DNA of 36,635 nucleotides from Saprospiraceae bacterium (GTDB lineage Bacteria; Bacteroidota; Bacteroidia; Chitinophagales; Saprospiraceae): the NCBI GenBank assembly GCA_025056735.1, contig JANWVR010000116.1, positions 1 through 36,635 of the forward strand, written 5' to 3'. Shown here piece after piece: positions 1 to 7,112 of the stretch. Below the pieces are notes generated by a model. That model was not told where the DNA came from, ran no database searches, and saw only the letters and a program-made list of their open reading frames with translations. How positions within the stretch are numbered: position 1 is the stretch's first letter; every line of letters begins with the position of its first letter. Made by a program: the position numbers and the translations under genes.

Positions 1-458
1 ATAGCCTCAGCACAGGTCATATCTTCTTGCACTGTGGCAAAATCCGTACTCATGATTCCGCCTGCTGTATCGGGCGGATAAGCACTTAGGGCAATTACAT
101 CCTCGCGCACCGCTTTCGACAAATAGGGCAATAGAGCCGCCTGTTCCTGCTGAGTCAAATGTTGAAACAAATCGGCCCGACTATCCGAAGGCATCTGCTC
201 GAAGATGAGTGCAAAACGCTTCTTGCTCAGCGACTGAAAAAGCAGCAGTTGCCGTTCGAGAGGAAACTCAGCCAGAATAAAGCCCTGTTGCTCTGGCTCA
301 AAAAGGTCTAAAATGCCGGGTAGCTCCACGTCGTCCAGCTGTACGAGCAGCTCGCCTACCTCCACCACGGGCATCTGCTTCAGGGTGGGCACCATTTCGA
401 CCACTTCCTCTGCCGTTATTGGGCCAATGGGCTTTGTCAAGACCTCTACGTTCTTCAT
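1..458 (-). CDS. mgtE: Magnesium transporter MgtE, N-terminal part (cut by left window edge)
   Basis: This is the first ~152 residues of a MgtE-type Mg2+ channel; the CBS remainder and the membrane domain lie outside the window. Translation from the ATG at 458 gives MKNVEVLTKPIGPIT, then a helical, Leu/Glu-rich MgtE N domain (for example LVQLDDVELPGILDLFEP and FEQMPSDSRADLFQHL). The family junction motif YPPDTAGGIMSTDF follows and leads into the first CBS domain. In this family the N and CBS domains sit in the cytoplasm and close the pore when Mg2+ is bound. The start lies 65 bp downstream of the mgtC-like gene in the same direction, so co-transcription is likely. No Shine-Dalgarno is visible; instead two tandem 14-bp repeats precede the start. 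The family call is firm from the motif, but transport function is inferred because the pore is not seen. Confidence 0.9.
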   Translation of the reverse strand, partial: MKNVEVLTKPIGPITAEEVVEMVPTLKQMPVVEVGELLVQLDDVELPGILDLFEPEQQGFILAEFPLERQLLLFQSLSKKRFALIFEQMPSDSRADLFQHLTQQEQAALLPYLSKAVREDVIALSAYPPDTAGGIMSTDFATVQEDMTCAEA

Positions 459-468
459 ATCTTAAGGA

Positions 469-496
469 ATGGAAAATGAAAAATGGAAAATGAAAA
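469..496. repeat. Two perfect tandem 14-bp repeats upstream of mgtE
   Basis: The unit ATGGAAAATGAAAA occurs twice head to tail (469-482 and 483-496), between the mgtC stop and the mgtE start on the minus strand. Read in the mRNA direction it is a pyrimidine-rich TTTTCATTTTCCAT pair ending 10 nt before the ATG. Such a repeat can change copy number by slippage. Whether it matters for expression is unknown. Confidence 0.8.
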
Positions 497-523
497 GTGA
501 GAGGAAGTATTGTCGCTGGCAGT

Positions 524-1258
524 TTACTCCTCACCTTTTCGCTGTTCGCTGACTTCCCAGCTGACCTCTGTGACGCCATATTCCAACGTGAGGAGGCCGG
601 CCAGACGTTCCATATCGGCGTCGTGTTTGCCGTCAGCCAATATTTCGGCTTCGATGTGCGCGTAGGCTGGATTGGTCTCTTCGCTGCTTTTGAGCGAGCG
701 CAGCTGCAGGTGTTCGTCGGATTTAACGGTGTTAAGCAGCAGCACGCGAATGTGGTTTTCGACGTGCTCTTTGCAGCGGATGTTGAAATAGTAGTAATAC
801 AGACTGCTTTCCTCCTCACTGCGAAATGAGCGGCGGCTCAGCCAGGCATTCAGCGGGCGCAATCCGATATGGGCCAGCAATACAGCGAAGGCCACAGCAG
901 TGGCCTGCATCCACAAGCCAGCGCCGGCCAAGGTACCTACGGCGGCAGAACACCAGATGGTAGCTGCTGTATTCAGCCCAATAATGGTGCGCCCGGCTTT
1001 CATGATAACCCCAGCGCCCAGAAAGCCAATGCCCGTAACGATTTGCCCGGCTACGCGCGTAGCATCGCCTCGATAGACACCACCGCCGTCCATGTCGGTC
1101 AGCGTCAGCGACAGGAGTACAAACGCCGCCGAACCAACGGACACTAACGTGTTGGTCTTCAAACCAGCGCTCTTCTGCCGATACTGGCGCTCCACCCCTA
1201 CGAGCGCGCCCAACAGAAAGGCCAGACCTATGCGAAGCAGAAAAATTGTGAACGTCAT
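524..1258 (-). CDS. mgtC: MgtC/SapB family membrane protein
   Basis: 244 residues. The N-terminal half is the MgtC/SapB membrane domain: FLLRIGLAFLLGALVGVER at about residues 4-22, then GLKTNTLVSVGSAAFVLLS, then the family signature QIVTGIGFLGAGVIMK and IIGLNTAATIWCSAAVG. The C-terminal ~90 residues form a soluble ACT-like domain ending in VTEVSWEVSEQRKGEE. MgtC proteins in enterobacteria are linked to growth at low Mg2+ and to inhibition of the F1Fo ATPase; many SapB-type homologues are uncharacterised. I chose the ATG at 1258 because family members begin close to the first membrane helix. The open frame extends upstream to 1405, but those residues are basic, non-homologous and partly upstream of the likely transcription start. 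It lies downstream of a two-component system and upstream of mgtE, all in one direction. Confidence 0.88.
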   Translation of the reverse strand: MTFTIFLLRIGLAFLLGALVGVERQYRQKSAGLKTNTLVSVGSAAFVLLSLTLTDMDGGGVYRGDATRVAGQIVTGIGFLGAGVIMKAGRTIIGLNTAATIWCSAAVGTLAGAGLWMQATAVAFAVLLAHIGLRPLNAWLSRRSFRSEEESSLYYYYFNIRCKEHVENHIRVLLLNTVKSDEHLQLRSLKSSEETNPAYAHIEAEILADGKHDADMERLAGLLTLEYGVTEVSWEVSEQRKGEE

Positions 1259-1373
1259 GGCAGTGCTGCGATTGAACGGTGAAAAACGGTTGCGACGCCA
1301 TGCCATCTTGAGCAGGGCGATGTCTATGAAGAACCTCCGCGCAGTCAGAAACTTTTCGCTTTCAAATGCGCTG

Positions 1374-1381
1374 CAAAGGTC
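1374..1381 (-). promoter_or_regulatory. Candidate -7 element for mgtC-mgtE (7 of 8)
   Basis: The plus strand reads CAAAGGTC, which is GACCTTTG in the transcribed direction, one mismatch from TAnnTTTG. No -33 TTTG lies at the usual 19-21 nt. The phased TTCTAA repeats at 1405-1443 occupy that position instead, as expected for an activator-dependent promoter. The predicted leader to the ATG at 1258 is about 110 nt. Confidence 0.45.
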
Positions 1382-1404
1382 TGCCAGCATTGGCAAATAG
1401 GCCA

Positions 1405-1443
1405 TTAGAACGCTGTTAGAATCGCATTAGAAAAACCTTAGAG
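1405..1443 (-). promoter_or_regulatory. Four 11-bp-phased TTCTAA direct repeats, candidate response-regulator operator
   Basis: On the plus strand TTAGAA occurs at 1405-1410, 1416-1421 and 1427-1432, and the near-copy TTAGAG at 1438-1443. All are spaced exactly 11 bp, one helical turn. In the transcribed direction they read CTCTAA and then three TTCTAA hexamers. The array lies between the histidine kinase stop (it overlaps that stop codon) and the mgtC start. Direct repeats with about one-turn spacing are the usual target shape of OmpR/PhoB-family regulators, and one is encoded about 1.4 kb upstream. Regulator identity is inferred; the repeats are directly visible. Confidence 0.65.
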
Positions 1444-2823
1444 CGCGCGGTCAGCGTATGGTAACTCCACGACGACCGTAGTGCCCTGGCCAGGGGCAGA
1501 GTCTGTGTGGATGCGGCCCCGGTGCAATTCGACAATGCGCGCCGTTAGCGGCAGTCCGATGCCGTGTCCATGAGCACCTGTTCCGTTGACGCCTCGATAG
1601 AAAGGCGTGAAAATATGCGGCAGATCTTCGGGCCGAATACCAATACCTGCATCGGCAAAGGTCAGGCGGATGCAATCCTCGCGCAGTGCTACAGAGATGC
1701 GGCACTCGGGCGGCGAGGAGAACTTGCAGGCGTTCTCAATCAGATTGGCAAAAGCCACTCCCAGCAGGTGGCCATTGCCGCGCACGGTAATGGCCTGCTC
1801 TTGCTCGAAGTTGCCTTCAAAACGGATATCTACCCGATACTCCGGGTTATGTTGCTGCACCTGCTGGCAGGCGTCGAGCAGCGCTTCGTCCACTCGAACG
1901 GGGCTGAGTTTAATCTGGGCGGCGTCGTAACTGGCCCGGGCTAAGTCGAGCAGACTGCTCGATAGGCGGGCCAATCGGCGCGCATCGGCAAGGGCATTTT
2001 GCAAGGCGCGCTGGTATTCCTCTGGAGTTCGGTTTCGCTGGGCGGCCCATTCCAATTCGCTGATCATGGCCGCCAGCGGCGTACGCAGTTCGTGGCTGAC
2101 GTTAGAGACGAACTGCTTTTGCGCCTCAAAAGAGTGTTCTAAGCGGTCAAGCAGCGCATTGAAAGTGTCGGCCAGCTCGGTCAGTTCGTCGCGCTGGTGC
2201 GGGTCGCCTGTCCGCAGGCGCAGGTCTAAGTGAGTAGCTGAGATCAAGCGCGCATTTTCCACCATATTCCGGATAGGCCGTAAGGCCCGCTCAGCAAAGT
2301 AACGCCCGCTGAACCATAAAATAACGACACCCAGCAGCCATAGTGCTGCCAGCGTCTGACCTAAGCGATCCAGTTTGGCGTAGCCGTATTCGTCGTAAGC
2401 AGCCGCCGTCAGCGCATAATCGGCGCCCTCAAACGAAAACTTCAGCCCTACAGCCTGCCATCGGCCCTGGTAAAACTGCACCGTCTGGCCGCTCAGGATG
2501 CTATCGAGCATGGATGCTGTCTCTTTCACCTCGTCTATCTCCACAGCGTCGTGATAGAGAAGCTGATGTCGGCTGTCGTAAATGGCAACTTCTACTTCGC
2601 GAATGACCTTTCGATTGCGGTGATAGATGTCTTGCAGCGTCTGAGGGTTCAGGCGCGCCTCGAAGAAAAGGTTGGCTTTCGTGAGGGCCTCCTTTCGCAG
2701 CAGCGCGTAAAACTCCGCCTCCCGGTTTCGCAGGGCAGAATAGTAGGTGGTGCCGGCAAAGAGCGCCAGGATGGCTGTTGTCAACAGGACAAACCGGAGG
2801 GTAAGTCGAGTTCGGATGGTCAT
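1438..2823 (-). CDS. Sensor histidine kinase of a two-component system
   Basis: 461 residues, an inner-membrane sensor kinase partnered with the response regulator it overlaps. Membrane segment 1 lies at about residues 11-31 and segment 2 at about 157-175, enclosing a ~125-residue periplasmic sensor region. A HAMP-like linker (RPIRNMVENARLISATHLDLRL) follows, then the dimerisation box FVSNVSHELRTPL with phospho-accepting His244, and the ATP-binding N box (LANLIENACKFS) with later G boxes (DAGIGIRPEDLPHIF and GHGIGLPLTARIV). The architecture matches heavy-metal/cell-envelope sensor kinases of the CusS/BaeS type. The ligand is not evident from sequence. The ATG at 2823 overlaps the regulator stop by 4 bp, so the two are translationally coupled. 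The mgtC-mgtE pair follows downstream, which suggests divalent cation or envelope stress as a signal (inference). Confidence 0.93.
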   Translation of the reverse strand: MTIRTRLTLRFVLLTTAILALFAGTTYYSALRNREAEFYALLRKEALTKANLFFEARLNPQTLQDIYHRNRKVIREVEVAIYDSRHQLLYHDAVEIDEVKETASMLDSILSGQTVQFYQGRWQAVGLKFSFEGADYALTAAAYDEYGYAKLDRLGQTLAALWLLGVVILWFSGRYFAERALRPIRNMVENARLISATHLDLRLRTGDPHQRDELTELADTFNALLDRLEHSFEAQKQFVSNVSHELRTPLAAMISELEWAAQRNRTPEEYQRALQNALADARRLARLSSSLLDLARASYDAAQIKLSPVRVDEALLDACQQVQQHNPEYRVDIRFEGNFEQEQAITVRGNGHLLGVAFANLIENACKFSSPPECRISVALREDCIRLTFADAGIGIRPEDLPHIFTPFYRGVNGTGAHGHGIGLPLTARIVELHRGRIHTDSAPGQGTTVVVELPYADRAL

Positions 2824-3503
2824 TCCACTTTCAGAATAAAACCCATGCCGGGGCGGGTGTGAATAAGTTTTTGCGCAAAACCTTTATCCACTTTGTTGCG
2901 CAGATAATTGATGTACACATCAATGAAGTTGGTGCCTGTATCGAAGTGGATACCCCAAACGTTTTCGGCGATTTCGGCGCGCGTCAGCACGCGGTTGGGG
3001 TTTCTCAGGAAATACTCTAAAAGCTTGAATTCTTTGGGCGTAAGGCGGATTTCCCGGCCTTCGCGCCGGACGGTGAGCGTATCGAGGTTCATTTCCAAGC
3101 CGTTAAAAGTGAGCAAGGCGCCGCCCGGTTCAGGGCGCTCTGCGTAGCGGCGCAGCAGGGCGCGAATGCGAGCGACGAGTTCGCGCATTTCAAAGGGTTT
3201 CACCAAATAGTCGTCGGCGCCAGCATCTAAGCCGCTAACCTTATCGTCGGTAGCGCCTAAAGCCGTCAGCATCAGAATGGGGAGCCGGGGGCGTGCTTTT
3301 CGGAAGTGCTTACACAGTGTCAGGCCATCGAGGGCAGGCAGCATCACGTCCACGATGAGCGCATCGTAGTCGTTCTGTAGAGCCATTTCGCGGCCCTGCA
3401 GGCCATCGGGCGCATGCGCGACGGCAAAGCCCTCTTCTTCGAGCCCTCGGCGAAGGAGGGCCGACACGCGGGGGTCGTCTTCGATGATGAGGATGCGGTG
3501 CAT
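2820..3503 (-). CDS. OmpR-family DNA-binding response regulator
   Basis: 227 residues. Receiver domain: acidic pair Asp9/Asp10 (ILIIEDDPRVSALL), phospho-acceptor Asp52 (IVDVMLPALDG), Thr80 (LMLTALG) and Lys102 (DDYLVKPFEM). The C-terminal winged helix of the Trans_reg_C type contains EIRLTPKEFKLLEYFLRNP, RVLTRAEIAENVWG and FIDVYINYLRNKVDKG. The ATG at 3503 is used because it begins MHRILIIEDD, the normal start of the receiver fold; an in-frame ATG five codons upstream adds only MWATI. The start sits about a dozen nucleotides after a strong intrinsic terminator, so its promoter is not obvious. The likely target is its own operon or the repeats before mgtC. Confidence 0.95.
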   Translation of the reverse strand: MHRILIIEDDPRVSALLRRGLEEEGFAVAHAPDGLQGREMALQNDYDALIVDVMLPALDGLTLCKHFRKARPRLPILMLTALGATDDKVSGLDAGADDYLVKPFEMRELVARIRALLRRYAERPEPGGALLTFNGLEMNLDTLTVRREGREIRLTPKEFKLLEYFLRNPNRVLTRAEIAENVWGIHFDTGTNFIDVYINYLRNKVDKGFAQKLIHTRPGMGFILKVE

Positions 3504-3514
3504 GATTGTCGCCC

Positions 3515-3554
3515 ACAAAAAAACGCTGCTCCGGCCACAGGCCAGAGCAGCGTT
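3515..3554 (-). terminator. Intrinsic terminator after the Oar-like receptor
   Basis: AACGCTGCTC (3522-3531) pairs with GAGCAGCGTT (3545-3554). After one C/A mismatch the inner GGCC/GGCC closes an ACA loop. In the minus-strand transcript the hairpin is followed directly by a run of T (plus-strand A run at 3517-3523). It ends only ~12 nt before the response-regulator start codon. Confidence 0.9.
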
Positions 3555-3601
3555 GCTAAGAAAATGTGGGGCACGAGCGTAAGGGTCGGCCCGATTCGTT
3601 T

Positions 3602-6600
3602 TTAATTAAACGTGTAGCGGATGCCCACCTGGAGGTTCCACACGTCGTTGATAGTGGCGCTCCAGTCGGTAGTGCGGCGCGTCGTTGGATTAAGCAGCTG
3701 GCTGGTAACGCGATAAACCGGCACGCCGTCCTGGCCCACGCTGCGGCTGGTCAGCGGTACGTTGGCGATAAGGCGTTGACCCACGCCCCAGTTCGAGTTG
3801 ATCAGGTTGCCTACGTTGAACACATCTACGCGGAACTGCAATGCGTTGCGCTTGCCGCCCACGGTGATGAAGAAATCGCGCGATACAGCTAAGTCGAAGC
3901 GGTGCAGCATGGGGCGCAGGCCGCCGTTGCGCTCCGTGTATTTACCGCGGCGGCTGCTCAGATAGGGGTCATTGTTGATGTACTCCTCAAAGAAGGCCTC
4001 TTGTTGCGCAGGAGTGTAAGTTATGTTGTTGCTCGTGAATTGCTCAAAGCGTAAATCAGAGGCCTTTTCCGGCACAAAGAGCAGGTCGTTACCAGCCACG
4101 CCATCGCCGTTCATATCGCCGGCGTAGGTGTAGGAGAATCGGTTGCCCTGAATGCCTTCGTAGCCGATGGTGAACTGCGTAGAGCCGCCGCGCTTCTCGC
4201 CGAAGTTGGTGCGGTAGCTGAGCAGGCCGATGAGGCGATGCGGTATGTCGTTGTCGGCAAAGGCCAGGTCTAAGCGGTTGTTGCCGTTGACCGAGCGGGC
4301 GCTTCTCCAAGAACCTATGGCAATAGAACCAGCACTCATTAAGTCGCGAGCGCGGCTGTACGTATAGGCAAACATACCGTAAAGGCCTTTACGTTCGGGA
4401 TACTCCAACTTAAACGTGGCGCCAATATAGTCCCCCTGGTTTGTTGTAGTAAGCACGGTGAGACTGGATACATTTCTGGCCATGCGAGTAGCTGGCGTAA
4501 ATTCTTGTGTAGTGCCTATAGCACCCGGATAGCGCAAACGGCGGTCTGGCCCCTTAAAGGTGTCAATGTGTGGCCTAGAGTTGGCATTATAATACAAGAC
4601 GGCGTTGAGGTTCCGCGTATAGATTAGTTCGGCTGTGGCTACCAAATTTAAGGGTAGTTTCTGATCTATTGCAAAACTAGCCTTGATTACCTGAGGGAAG
4701 CGATAGTTCTCATCTGTGTGAGCTATCTCGAATGTTGAAGGCAGACTCGGCTTTTCCGGCGTGAACATTTTAATTACTTCCTCCGTGGGTACTAATGGGA
4801 ACTTTCTCGTATTAACATTAGACGTATCAATAAAACCCGTTAGCACACCATTGTTGCCAATCTGGTTAGACAGCCATACAAACGGAGGGCGACCTGTGAA
4901 GATGCCTACGCCGCCACGAATTTGAGTCGTCTTTTTTCCCGTTACATCATAATTGAAGCCCAATCGTGGCTCCCACAAAAACTGAGGCTTCGGCAGGACG
5001 CCGGTATTCACTTTGAGTGGATTTCCGTTCAAGTCAATAAATGTGGAGTCTTTAATAACCGCGTTGGTGAGCGCTTGCGGACTGCTCAGGGTGATATAGC
5101 TGCCGCGCACACCTGCTGTTAAAGTGAGATTGCCAAGGCTGATCTGGTCTTGCGCGTACAAATCGTACTTGCTTGCAACTAATACCTGTAGCGGATCTGC
5201 GCCACCCGGCAAAGCAGAATAGCGATACTGGAAGCGAGCCACACGCACAGAGTCCCCGCGCACAGCGCCGAAGAAATCTTCCAAGGAATTGAAAACATAA
5301 ACCCCATGAGAACCTGGGAAGAAGAGGTTATTCGACTTAAAACGCTCATAATTAGCGCCCACCGTGAAAGTGTGCCTCCCGGCGTAGATCGAAACGTTAT
5401 TCGTAATGTGAAGGGTGCCGTAGTTCAGCCGGTTCTTCGGCGTAAAAGGATCGAAGCCCGCCGAAATGTAGGTCAGGTTGTCTTTCAGAATGTCCACCGT
5501 CGGGAAGAGCTGGCCAATGTAGCCACGGTCTTCGTTCTGGTAGTCGTAGCCCACGCTGAGCAGGTTCGAGATGCGGTCGCCGAACATGGAGTTCAATTCC
5601 GCTACGATCGAGCGCGTGTTATCTTGCTGGAGGTAGCCTGAGTTCTGGAACGACATCGAGTTGATGTTCGTCCGGCGGTTACCGAAGCCTAACGAAGAGC
5701 TGTTGCTGATATTGATCTCGGCATCCGAGTCGTGGTGCGTGTAGCGGAGCATCAGCTTGTGGCGGTCGCTGAGGTTGAAGTCTAAGCGAGCCATAAACTT
5801 GCGCGAGTTGGTCGCTAAATTGTAGGCCTCGTAAGGGCCAGTAACATAGCCAAAACGGTTAAAAAGCACCCTGCTAACAGAGTCTATGTCTCTCTTGAGC
5901 ACGCGCGTTACTTGGCCCGGGTTTGTGCTGCCGTTGGCTACCCAGGGCGTCGCAGGCTCTGTTTTGCCTACTACTTCGCCACTGAGAAAGAAAAAGACCT
6001 TGTTCTTAATTATAGGGCCGCCTACGCGAGCGCCGTAGATGTTTTCGGAAAACTGTGTAGAAGTTACGCTCGCATCACGCGCTTTATTTCCGTACATATT
6101 CGCTGAGCGGCGGAAGCCGTAGACCGAGCCTTTTAACTCGTTGGTGCCCGAGCGCGTAACGGCGTTAATACCGGCGCCCACGAAGCCCGTCTGACGCACG
6201 TCAAAAGGCGCCACGTTAACCTGTACCTCTTCGATAGCATCTAAAGAAATGGCCGTCGAACCCGTACGACCGCCGGCTTGAGCTTCAGCACCCAAACCAA
6301 AGCCGTTGTTGAACACCGAACCGTCAATGGTGAAGTTGTTCAGACGCGCGTCCTGGGCGCCAAACGAACGACCGTCGCCGTTAGGGTTGTACTTCGTAAC
6401 CGAGCTGATAGCGCGGCTACCAATGGCCGGCACCGACGTTACCACGCGCTCCGAAAACGTCGAAGCTGCACCTGTGCGCTCCGAAGAGAACAAATCGGCG
6501 CGCTCCGCGCGAACCACTATCTCTTCCAATGCAACGCCAGCATCTTTCAACTGGAAATCCACGTTGGAAGCCACACCTAAGTTAGTGTAGATGTTCTCCT

Positions 6601-6904
6601 TCGTTTCAGACTCAAAACCGGTGTACGTGGCCGTAACCGAGAACGGGCCGCCTACGCGCACTGCAGGAAGCGTGTAACGTCCAGAAGCATTTGTAGTCGT
6701 GCCATAGCGCGTGCCCGAGGGAACGTGTGTGGCAACCACGGTAACCCCGATGAGTGCTTCGCCGCGGGTATCCGTAATCGTACCCGTAATGGTGGAAGTG
6801 GTCACCTGTGCAAAAGCCGTCAAGCTGCCCAGCAGCAGCGCTGCCAGCAAAAGACCTTTCCGGGCCCGCACAACCATTCGATAGGTAAGCGTAGCAAAAT
6901 TCAT
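3602..6904 (-). CDS. Oar-like TonB-dependent outer-membrane receptor
   Basis: 1100 residues. Signal peptide about residues 1-32 (basic start, LLLAALLLGSLTAFA, cleavage before QVTTS). A carboxypeptidase-regulatory-like domain follows (STITGTITDTRGEALIGVTV ... TYTGF, about 35-100). The plug then has the Oar-type region RLNNFTIDGSVFNNGFGLG and AIEEVQVNVAPFDVRQTGF, and leads into a C-terminal beta-barrel ending in an aromatic strand (LQVGIRYTFN). Proteins of this family are large outer-membrane receptors; Oar of Myxococcus is needed for development and export-linked signalling, but substrates in Bacteroidota are mostly unknown. The gene stands alone, with its own -7 element at 6946-6953 and a terminator at 3515-3554. 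The family call is secure; the substrate is unknown. Confidence 0.92.
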   Translation of the reverse strand: MNFATLTYRMVVRARKGLLLAALLLGSLTAFAQVTTSTITGTITDTRGEALIGVTVVATHVPSGTRYGTTTNASGRYTLPAVRVGGPFSVTATYTGFESETKENIYTNLGVASNVDFQLKDAGVALEEIVVRAERADLFSSERTGAASTFSERVVTSVPAIGSRAISSVTKYNPNGDGRSFGAQDARLNNFTIDGSVFNNGFGLGAEAQAGGRTGSTAISLDAIEEVQVNVAPFDVRQTGFVGAGINAVTRSGTNELKGSVYGFRRSANMYGNKARDASVTSTQFSENIYGARVGGPIIKNKVFFFLSGEVVGKTEPATPWVANGSTNPGQVTRVLKRDIDSVSRVLFNRFGYVTGPYEAYNLATNSRKFMARLDFNLSDRHKLMLRYTHHDSDAEINISNSSSLGFGNRRTNINSMSFQNSGYLQQDNTRSIVAELNSMFGDRISNLLSVGYDYQNEDRGYIGQLFPTVDILKDNLTYISAGFDPFTPKNRLNYGTLHITNNVSIYAGRHTFTVGANYERFKSNNLFFPGSHGVYVFNSLEDFFGAVRGDSVRVARFQYRYSALPGGADPLQVLVASKYDLYAQDQISLGNLTLTAGVRGSYITLSSPQALTNAVIKDSTFIDLNGNPLKVNTGVLPKPQFLWEPRLGFNYDVTGKKTTQIRGGVGIFTGRPPFVWLSNQIGNNGVLTGFIDTSNVNTRKFPLVPTEEVIKMFTPEKPSLPSTFEIAHTDENYRFPQVIKASFAIDQKLPLNLVATAELIYTRNLNAVLYYNANSRPHIDTFKGPDRRLRYPGAIGTTQEFTPATRMARNVSSLTVLTTTNQGDYIGATFKLEYPERKGLYGMFAYTYSRARDLMSAGSIAIGSWRSARSVNGNNRLDLAFADNDIPHRLIGLLSYRTNFGEKRGGSTQFTIGYEGIQGNRFSYTYAGDMNGDGVAGNDLLFVPEKASDLRFEQFTSNNITYTPAQQEAFFEEYINNDPYLSSRRGKYTERNGGLRPMLHRFDLAVSRDFFITVGGKRNALQFRVDVFNVGNLINSNWGVGQRLIANVPLTSRSVGQDGVPVYRVTSQLLNPTTRRTTDWSATINDVWNLQVGIRYTFN

Positions 6905-6945
6905 ACGATGAAAAAGTTTGGTGAACAGTTGTTTAGAACTGAGGG

Positions 6946-6953
6946 CAAAAGTA
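6946..6953 (-). promoter_or_regulatory. -7 element for the Oar-like receptor
   Basis: Plus-strand CAAAAGTA is an exact TACTTTTG on the minus strand and lies 42 nt before the ATG at 6904. No TTTG is found at the normal -33 spacing, so only half of the promoter is recognisable. Confidence 0.6.
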
Positions 6954-7112
6954 TAAGGAGTATGTTAAGTTGCGATTAAGTTTAAATCACCGTCAACCGA
7001 CCGATTGATAGATACAATATTTCAAATGAGTGGCATAAAAGGGTGCTCAAAAAAACAATATTTTGACTCTTGGGGCATGTCGCCCGCTCAAACGGCTGCG
7101 TCACTCCACACA

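Follow-up and report, generated by a model that had tools for sequence, protein, structure and literature searches.

PhoPQ controls mgtA and mgtC in enterobacteria, as passages of PMC11825808 describe. The PmrA box, as given in passages of PMC3973317, comprises the head-to-tail half-sites CTTAAT and CCTAAG with five bp between them, and half-sites five bp apart can therefore be bound head-to-tail by members of the OmpR/PhoB-type family. The DNA affinity purification sequencing (DAP-seq) motif of Riemerella PhoP is likened to the ArcA motif (579/583 peaks) in passages of PMC9603813. An iron-stimulon study has mgtA (BT0988) among its changed genes, in passages that are silent on a regulator of the type considered here (PMC10434189). 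Here we report four hexamers in 11-bp steps, lying between a sensor histidine kinase gene and mgtC in a stretch of 36,635 nucleotides from a Saprospiraceae bacterium (contig JANWVR010000116.1 of assembly GCA_025056735.1; hereafter the window). Judged from sequence and context, this array is very probably the landing site of the response regulator encoded beside it.

The openly licensed literature, with subscription journals largely outside it, yielded in the passages retrieved no description of such an array circuit or of Mg2+ sensing in Bacteroidota. Two candidate precedents proved irrelevant in the passages concerned: the sequence shared with PMC3646045 is a primer, and the repeat of PMC10197871 is located in tolC.

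The array and its recurrence beside kinase genes

The features of the locus lie on the minus strand, in the order outer-membrane protein gene, response regulator, kinase, array, -7 promoter element, mgtC and the start of mgtE. On the plus strand, TTAGAA occurs at 1405-1410, 1416-1421 and 1427-1432, and TTAGAG at 1438-1443, in exact 11-bp steps; read on the minus strand from 1443 to 1405, this is CTCTAA-N5-TTCTAA-N5-TTCTAA-N5-TTCTAA. Direct reading thus agrees with the three exact and one near-exact hexamers first reported. Copies 2 (1427..1432), 3 (1416..1421) and 4, the proximal one (1405..1410), all TTCTAA, are also backed by the genome search and by relatives. The distal copy 1 (CTCTAA, 1438..1443) is TTCTAA in the relative L014 and holds the kinase stop codon (1438-1440). 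Coding constraint was considered as the origin of the repeats and is unlikely, because many relatives' arrays begin past the end of the kinase gene; in the window, the distal copy alone overlaps the kinase stop.

Pairs of hexamers with at most two mismatches numbered five in the window against 1.26 expected, a count reached by 1 of 100 shuffles, and three of the five lie in the array. The genome search proposed with the original prediction, for TTCTAA-N5-TTCTAA, found the exact pair in the array alone, as two overlapping matches in the 3.74 Mb genome. The four-copy pattern with at most three mismatches likewise matched once across the host genome, with no second site, and its reversed control gave 0 matches. 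A genome-wide host regulon of hexamer pairs was rejected: pairs with at most two mismatches were at control level (154 vs 152), and there is therefore no sign of a large weak-pair regulon.

Two of eight MgtC loci in relatives have homologues of the regulator and kinase, and both carry the array. L014 is 95% identical to the window in MgtC, 91% in the response regulator and 90% in the kinase, and has four exact TTCTAA copies. In L015 (64%, 67% and 55% identical, respectively) four in-phase copies, CTCTAA, TTCTAA, TTCTAT and CTCTAA, lie directly past the kinase gene and upstream of TolC-, HlyD-, MgtC- and MgtE-type genes. At the other six loci (L016-L021; MgtC 33-49% identical) we found no regulator homologue and, by scan, no three-copy array. 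Conservation in relatives, which had been put forward as a check on the prediction, was found: L014 and L015, which keep the regulator-kinase pair, have four in-phase copies past it. A four-copy array, TTCTAAGG/ATCTAAG, is also conserved near position 5000 of two host-genus regions (L068 and L071); it lies about 300 nt ahead of a SusC-like gene (assigned by eye) and has no evident -7 element at 23 nt.

For a wider count, loci were gathered by kinase similarity, independently of the array. They comprised the 18 top loci of a scan of 396 genomes of the order (including the window, L014 and L015) and the 25 next-best, making 43, together with 80 named loci among the matches listed from GTDB species genomes and 80 second-tier loci. 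Order-scan loci were taken in rank order among the matches listed, passing over G071, one of G291 and a G269 fragment; removal of the duplicates L128 and L163 left 201 distinct loci, near-identical ones (e.g. L193/L195) being retained. We call a locus a close homologue if its best local tblastn identity to the window kinase is at least 40%, a threshold rather than tested orthology. Of the 82 close loci 78, and of all 201 loci 194, have a regulator gene just upstream of the kinase gene.

We scanned the 250 nt past the kinase end for three in-phase TYTAA copies (at least 14/15 matches) at periods 6-24. Period 11 was found in 110 of the 201 loci and other periods in 0-3, except for the harmonic period 22 (18 loci). 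The scanned stretch begins some codons late in six loci (L136, L148, L185, L207, L246 and L287) because the tblastn match ran beyond the kinase stop. Upstream of the regulator gene, period 11 occurred on the opposite strand in 18 loci (other periods, 0-2) and on the same strand in 3 of 201, within background. In the first 43 loci, shuffled sequences passed this threshold 0.08-0.24% of the time, and no kinase coding DNA did so at period 11. Scanning the 82 close loci for the whole unit, four TCTAA copies together with a -7 element 23 nt on (at least 21/26 matches), placed it directly past the kinase in 49 and at another position of the locus in 18; 15 lacked it, seven of them with shortened downstream sequence, and the reversed sequences contained 0 units. 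Among the 18, seven Chryseobacterium loci have the unit 1-2 kb downstream of the kinase, before mgtC. The claim that the array serves the adjacent regulator as operator is thus supported, as far as sequence can do so, by its place past the kinase in 49 of 82 close loci. It was too narrow in scope, since the layout recurs across the phylum. One kinase 49% identical to the window's, with a weaker array, is on a contig labelled Beijerinckiaceae (L159), which is probably a wrongly binned Bacteroidota contig.

Starting from the sites instead, we found the three-copy pattern at 65 places, spread over 38 of the 396 genomes scanned from the order; the reversed pattern gave 16. Among 36 regions around such places were seven with a regulator-kinase pair just upstream (L057-L060, L062, L065 and L067). 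Pattern counts are inflated by 11-bp tandem microsatellites with in-phase TCTAA (L081, L082, L083 and L086), which are probably unrelated to the array. The strict pattern (four copies, 20-26 nt, TAnnTTTG) had 10 matches, spread over 9 of 395 Bacteroidota genomes, and its control had none. Each match spans 69 bases, meaning a spacing of exactly 23 nt; five have the kinase within 1.5 kb, and nine have the kinase and/or an MgtC or HlyD gene.

Some sites have other settings. One contig bears two full arrays with -7 elements, 2.4 kb apart (L297 and L298): the downstream one precedes an MgtC-like sequence matched in two places, and around the upstream one (L297) no neighbour was recognised within 1.5 kb. 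In genus g54, arrays precede large outer-membrane receptor-like genes, assigned by eye (L075, L076 and L077). In L077 the sequence immediately upstream of the array carries an MgtC gene and a probable mgtE; the kinase match of these genomes is on a contig other than the array's.

Promoter spacing and the genes that follow

The Bacteroidota promoter consensus consists of a -33 element and a -7 element, TAnnTTTG. In the window, the -7 element is GACCTTTG (1374..1381), identified by direct reading and by alignment with L014; it has five of the six specified bases and begins 23 nt past the last copy. The 23-nt spacer (1382..1404), whose length is matched by spacing counts in relatives' arrays, contains no -33 element. 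TTTG or TTG was absent 18-21 nt before the -7 element in all 67 arrays in which we sought it, and these promoters therefore lack a -33 element, as had been claimed of the window's together with a 7-of-8 -7 element.

When spacing was left free, 36 of 44 close-group arrays had a -7 element (at least 5/6 bases) at 23 nt; the offset was 12 nt in four, where an extra in-phase copy was counted, and 22 nt in one. Both L014 and L015 have 23 nt. Among 65 second-tier arrays the commonest offsets were 11 (30 arrays) and 22 (14 arrays). The consensus of the 67 arrays is tTCTAATaAntTTCTAATanntTTCTAannnttcTCTAACnGC, followed by TActTTTGCa 23 nt past the last TAA, a form that the selection of arrays favours. 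Hairpins are frequent in the spacer ahead of the -7 element: stems of at least 6 occur in 15 of 67 arrays vs 1.9 in shuffles (e.g. L091, L093 and L150). Some of these hairpins precede T runs, and they probably represent the regulator-kinase operon's terminator, which would overlap with the promoter that follows.

We took as first gene the longest same-strand open reading frame (ORF) with 80 or more codons whose start lies no further than 600 nt from the -7 element; shorter ORFs can precede it, and 13 loci across both tiers yielded no such ORF. Behind the 67 arrays the first gene encodes MgtC in 24, a P-type cation ATPase in 19, an outer-membrane efflux protein in 13, a HlyD-type adaptor in 8, MntP in 2 and a TonB-dependent receptor in 1. 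The 12 of the 19 ATPases that were scanned against NCBIfam are all of the Mg2+-translocating MgtA type (1241-1297 bits vs a cut-off of 610.75), nine of them from Bacteroides, Prevotella, Pedobacter, Mucilaginibacter and Chitinophagaceae. Among second-tier first genes (49 of 56 scanned), efflux proteins (10) and universal stress proteins (8) are the commonest kinds. Three second-tier regulator-kinase pairs with a related array (L057, L058 and L062) precede, by eye, universal-stress-protein-like genes and a gene for a bestrophin-like channel. In L092, L093, L097 and L191, array and mgtA are separated by leaders of about 540-600 nt; right before mgtA they contain an ORF of 65-69 codons for a hydrophobic, probably membrane-bound protein, and they hold further small ORFs, some starting MFK. 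Enterobacterial Mg2+ regulons include small membrane proteins.

In the window, mgtC (524..1258, minus strand) encodes a 244-aa protein of the MgtC family (Pfam MgtC, 125.5 bits; MgtC_SapB_C, 72.5 bits). Its start is probably the ATG at 1258, because the longer ORF from 1405 begins upstream of the promoter. It is the probable first gene of the controlled operon, and mgtE (3..458, minus strand; Pfam MgtE_N, 61.2 bits), present as its 5' part and running past the contig end, is the probable second. On the other side of the array, the kinase gene (1438..2823, minus strand) encodes 461 aa in which Pfam recognises HAMP, HisKA and HATPase domains only, with no sensor family; a PDC-like periplasmic sensor is predicted. 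The regulator gene (2820..3503, minus strand) encodes 227 aa with the Pfam receiver Response_reg and the winged helix Trans_reg_C (103.2 and 88 bits, above cut-off), and so the OmpR-type regulator expected just upstream is indeed there. Residues D52, T80, K102, E8 and D9 are invariant among 37 sequences, Asp52 being the phospho-acceptor. An intrinsic-terminator-like hairpin (3522..3554, minus strand; 15-bp stem with 10 G-C pairs, then a T run) stops about 18 nt before the regulator ATG; because it sits so close, the regulator-kinase operon may rely on read-through or on a promoter near the hairpin. Further upstream lies the outer-membrane protein gene (3602-6904, minus strand). Known RNA elements, sought in 10 loci, gave none at gathering score and one sub-threshold match in window positions 1-7000.

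A proposed activation circuit and its alternatives

The array, its conservation, linkage and phase, its spacing and the genes that follow are read directly from the DNA; from them we infer binding by the adjacent regulator, its stoichiometry, activation and the signal. The kinase (1438-2823) would sense a periplasmic signal, most likely Mg2+ scarcity or a related divalent-cation stress, and phosphorylate its partner regulator (2820-3503), the predicted array binder. The regulator would then fill all four head-to-tail half-sites, with two dimers probably aligned on a single DNA face, and recruit RNA polymerase to the promoter that has a -7 element without a -33 element. The output would be mgtC and mgtE in the window and, in other Bacteroidota, mgtC, mgtA or TolC/HlyD-type export genes, with L015 having export genes and then mgtC and mgtE. 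The array has the layout of an OmpR/PhoB direct-repeat operator, with half-sites that run head-to-tail in steps of about 11 bp close to the target promoter. A constant phase between array and -7 element is typical of polymerase contact by OmpR/PhoB activators, and the constant 23-nt spacing would place the regulator as an activator just upstream of polymerase. We hold with considerable confidence that the array is the operator of the adjacent regulator, that the kinase most likely responds to Mg2+ or divalent-cation stress, and that the regulator, probably as two dimers, activates the mgtC-mgtE promoter.

Instead of Mg2+ shortage, the signal behind the same operator could be transition-metal excess, manganese or damage to the envelope, with MgtC and MgtA as only part of a general cation-stress response. 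We regard this as unlikely, though the strongest of the alternatives: 43 of the 67 first genes encode MgtC or a P-type cation ATPase, the tested ATPases were without exception of the Mg2+ type, and the TolC/HlyD genes of L015 are followed by mgtC and mgtE. Since the proximal copy stops 23 nt from the -7 element, bound protein could also block polymerase and hold mgtC and mgtE off until the signal removes it. Such repression is improbable, given that the absence of TTTG or TTG at -33 from all 67 promoters is what activator dependence predicts and that the phase between array and -7 element is constant.

That the main binder is instead another OmpR-type regulator of the same cell seems still less probable. 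Second-tier paralogues adjoin similar arrays, making cross-binding possible, and in L076 and L077 the array and the regulator-kinase pair are on separate contigs; against this stand the arrays in the kinase's own locus (49 directly past the gene and 18 elsewhere among the 82) and a tendency of helix residue and array base to covary, with three independent pairs, too few for a test. Finally, some three-copy matches in the order are 11-bp microsatellites, as a functionless product of chance or slippage might be. For the window array this is scarcely credible: its inter-copy spacers differ from each other, and arrays recur phylum-wide at a constant promoter distance with zero control matches.

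Across 114 rows pairing one recognition-helix residue with a half-site base, Phe occurs with T in 27 and with C in 2 (L217 and L281), and Tyr with C in 76 and with T in 9 (L116 among them; Fisher 2.8e-16, uncorrected). The rows come from 126 array loci, 11 of which dropped out for want of a parsed helix and one for its short kinase. The tree-corrected test on these 114 rows was not significant, because the kinase tree contains four residue changes and three independent supported-branch pairs; on average 1.7 pairs differed the same way, 0.0 the opposite way and 1.3 not at all. We find it plausible, with much less assurance than the circuit itself, that an ancient Bacteroidota Mg2+-stress two-component system is involved, outside the PhoPQ family, with convergent targets (mgtA, mgtC and mgtE) and perhaps a PhoQ-like sensor fold. 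Its signature would be a four-half-site operator fixed 23 nt upstream of a promoter without a -33 element (22 nt in paralogues), and a Tyr/Phe switch at one recognition-helix position would set the half-site to TTCTAAT or TTTTAAT in a simple protein-DNA specificity code.

Bacteroidota form a major bacterial phylum in the gut, in soil and in water, and the proposal names a regulator, a sensor, an operator of exact geometry and a target set, all testable in a genetically tractable strain of the phylum. The constant array-promoter distance offers a clean natural case of activator-dependent transcription at this phylum's unusual promoter. From the Tyr/Phe-to-C/T correspondence comes a testable rule to predict where members of a large uncharacterised regulator family bind.

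Comparison with described systems

Because PhoPQ targets mgtA and mgtC, the analogy points to a window circuit that would work like PhoPQ without being classed as PhoPQ by sequence: PhoP and PhoQ are absent from the Pfam result and from the best 25 NCBIfam rows for each window protein (for the kinase, 25 of 84). By position the predicted operator does precede mgtA/mgtC-type genes, as PhoPQ control would have it (24 MgtC and 19 cation ATPase of 67). It differs from PhoP/PhoQ in its four half-sites, its hexamer and its promoter, which has a Bacteroidota -7 element 23 nt away, and some of the arrays described here precede TolC/HlyD export genes.

CzcRS, CopRS and SilRS are the best NCBIfam subfamilies for both window proteins among the best 25 rows, and several relatives have export genes behind the array, a further likeness. 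Scores remained below the CzcRS/CopRS cut-offs (TIGR01387 and TIGR01386; regulator 229.8 < 279.2 bits, kinase 210.3 < 292.55 bits). Riemerella anatipestifer PhoP is an OmpR-type regulator of the same phylum, whose published motif, different from the window's, has TTTAACA as its most conserved bases, which contain TTTAA; unlike the window system, it has no four-copy 11-bp array reported in the passages concerned, where it is compared with phosphate systems (PMC9603813).

In operator design, the likeness is to PmrA/BasR. The regulator belongs to the same structural family (BasR, 110 bits), and the YTAA core of the PmrA site, as far as the passages describe it, matches the window's TYTAA core. 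Its score against the PmrA equivalog NF007928 was 157.9 bits, below the cut-off of 330. PmrA, again from those passages, has two half-sites where the window has four, and different targets, and, as we read the paper's residue list, the positions of its His193 and His195 are occupied by Tyr and Asn in the window regulator.
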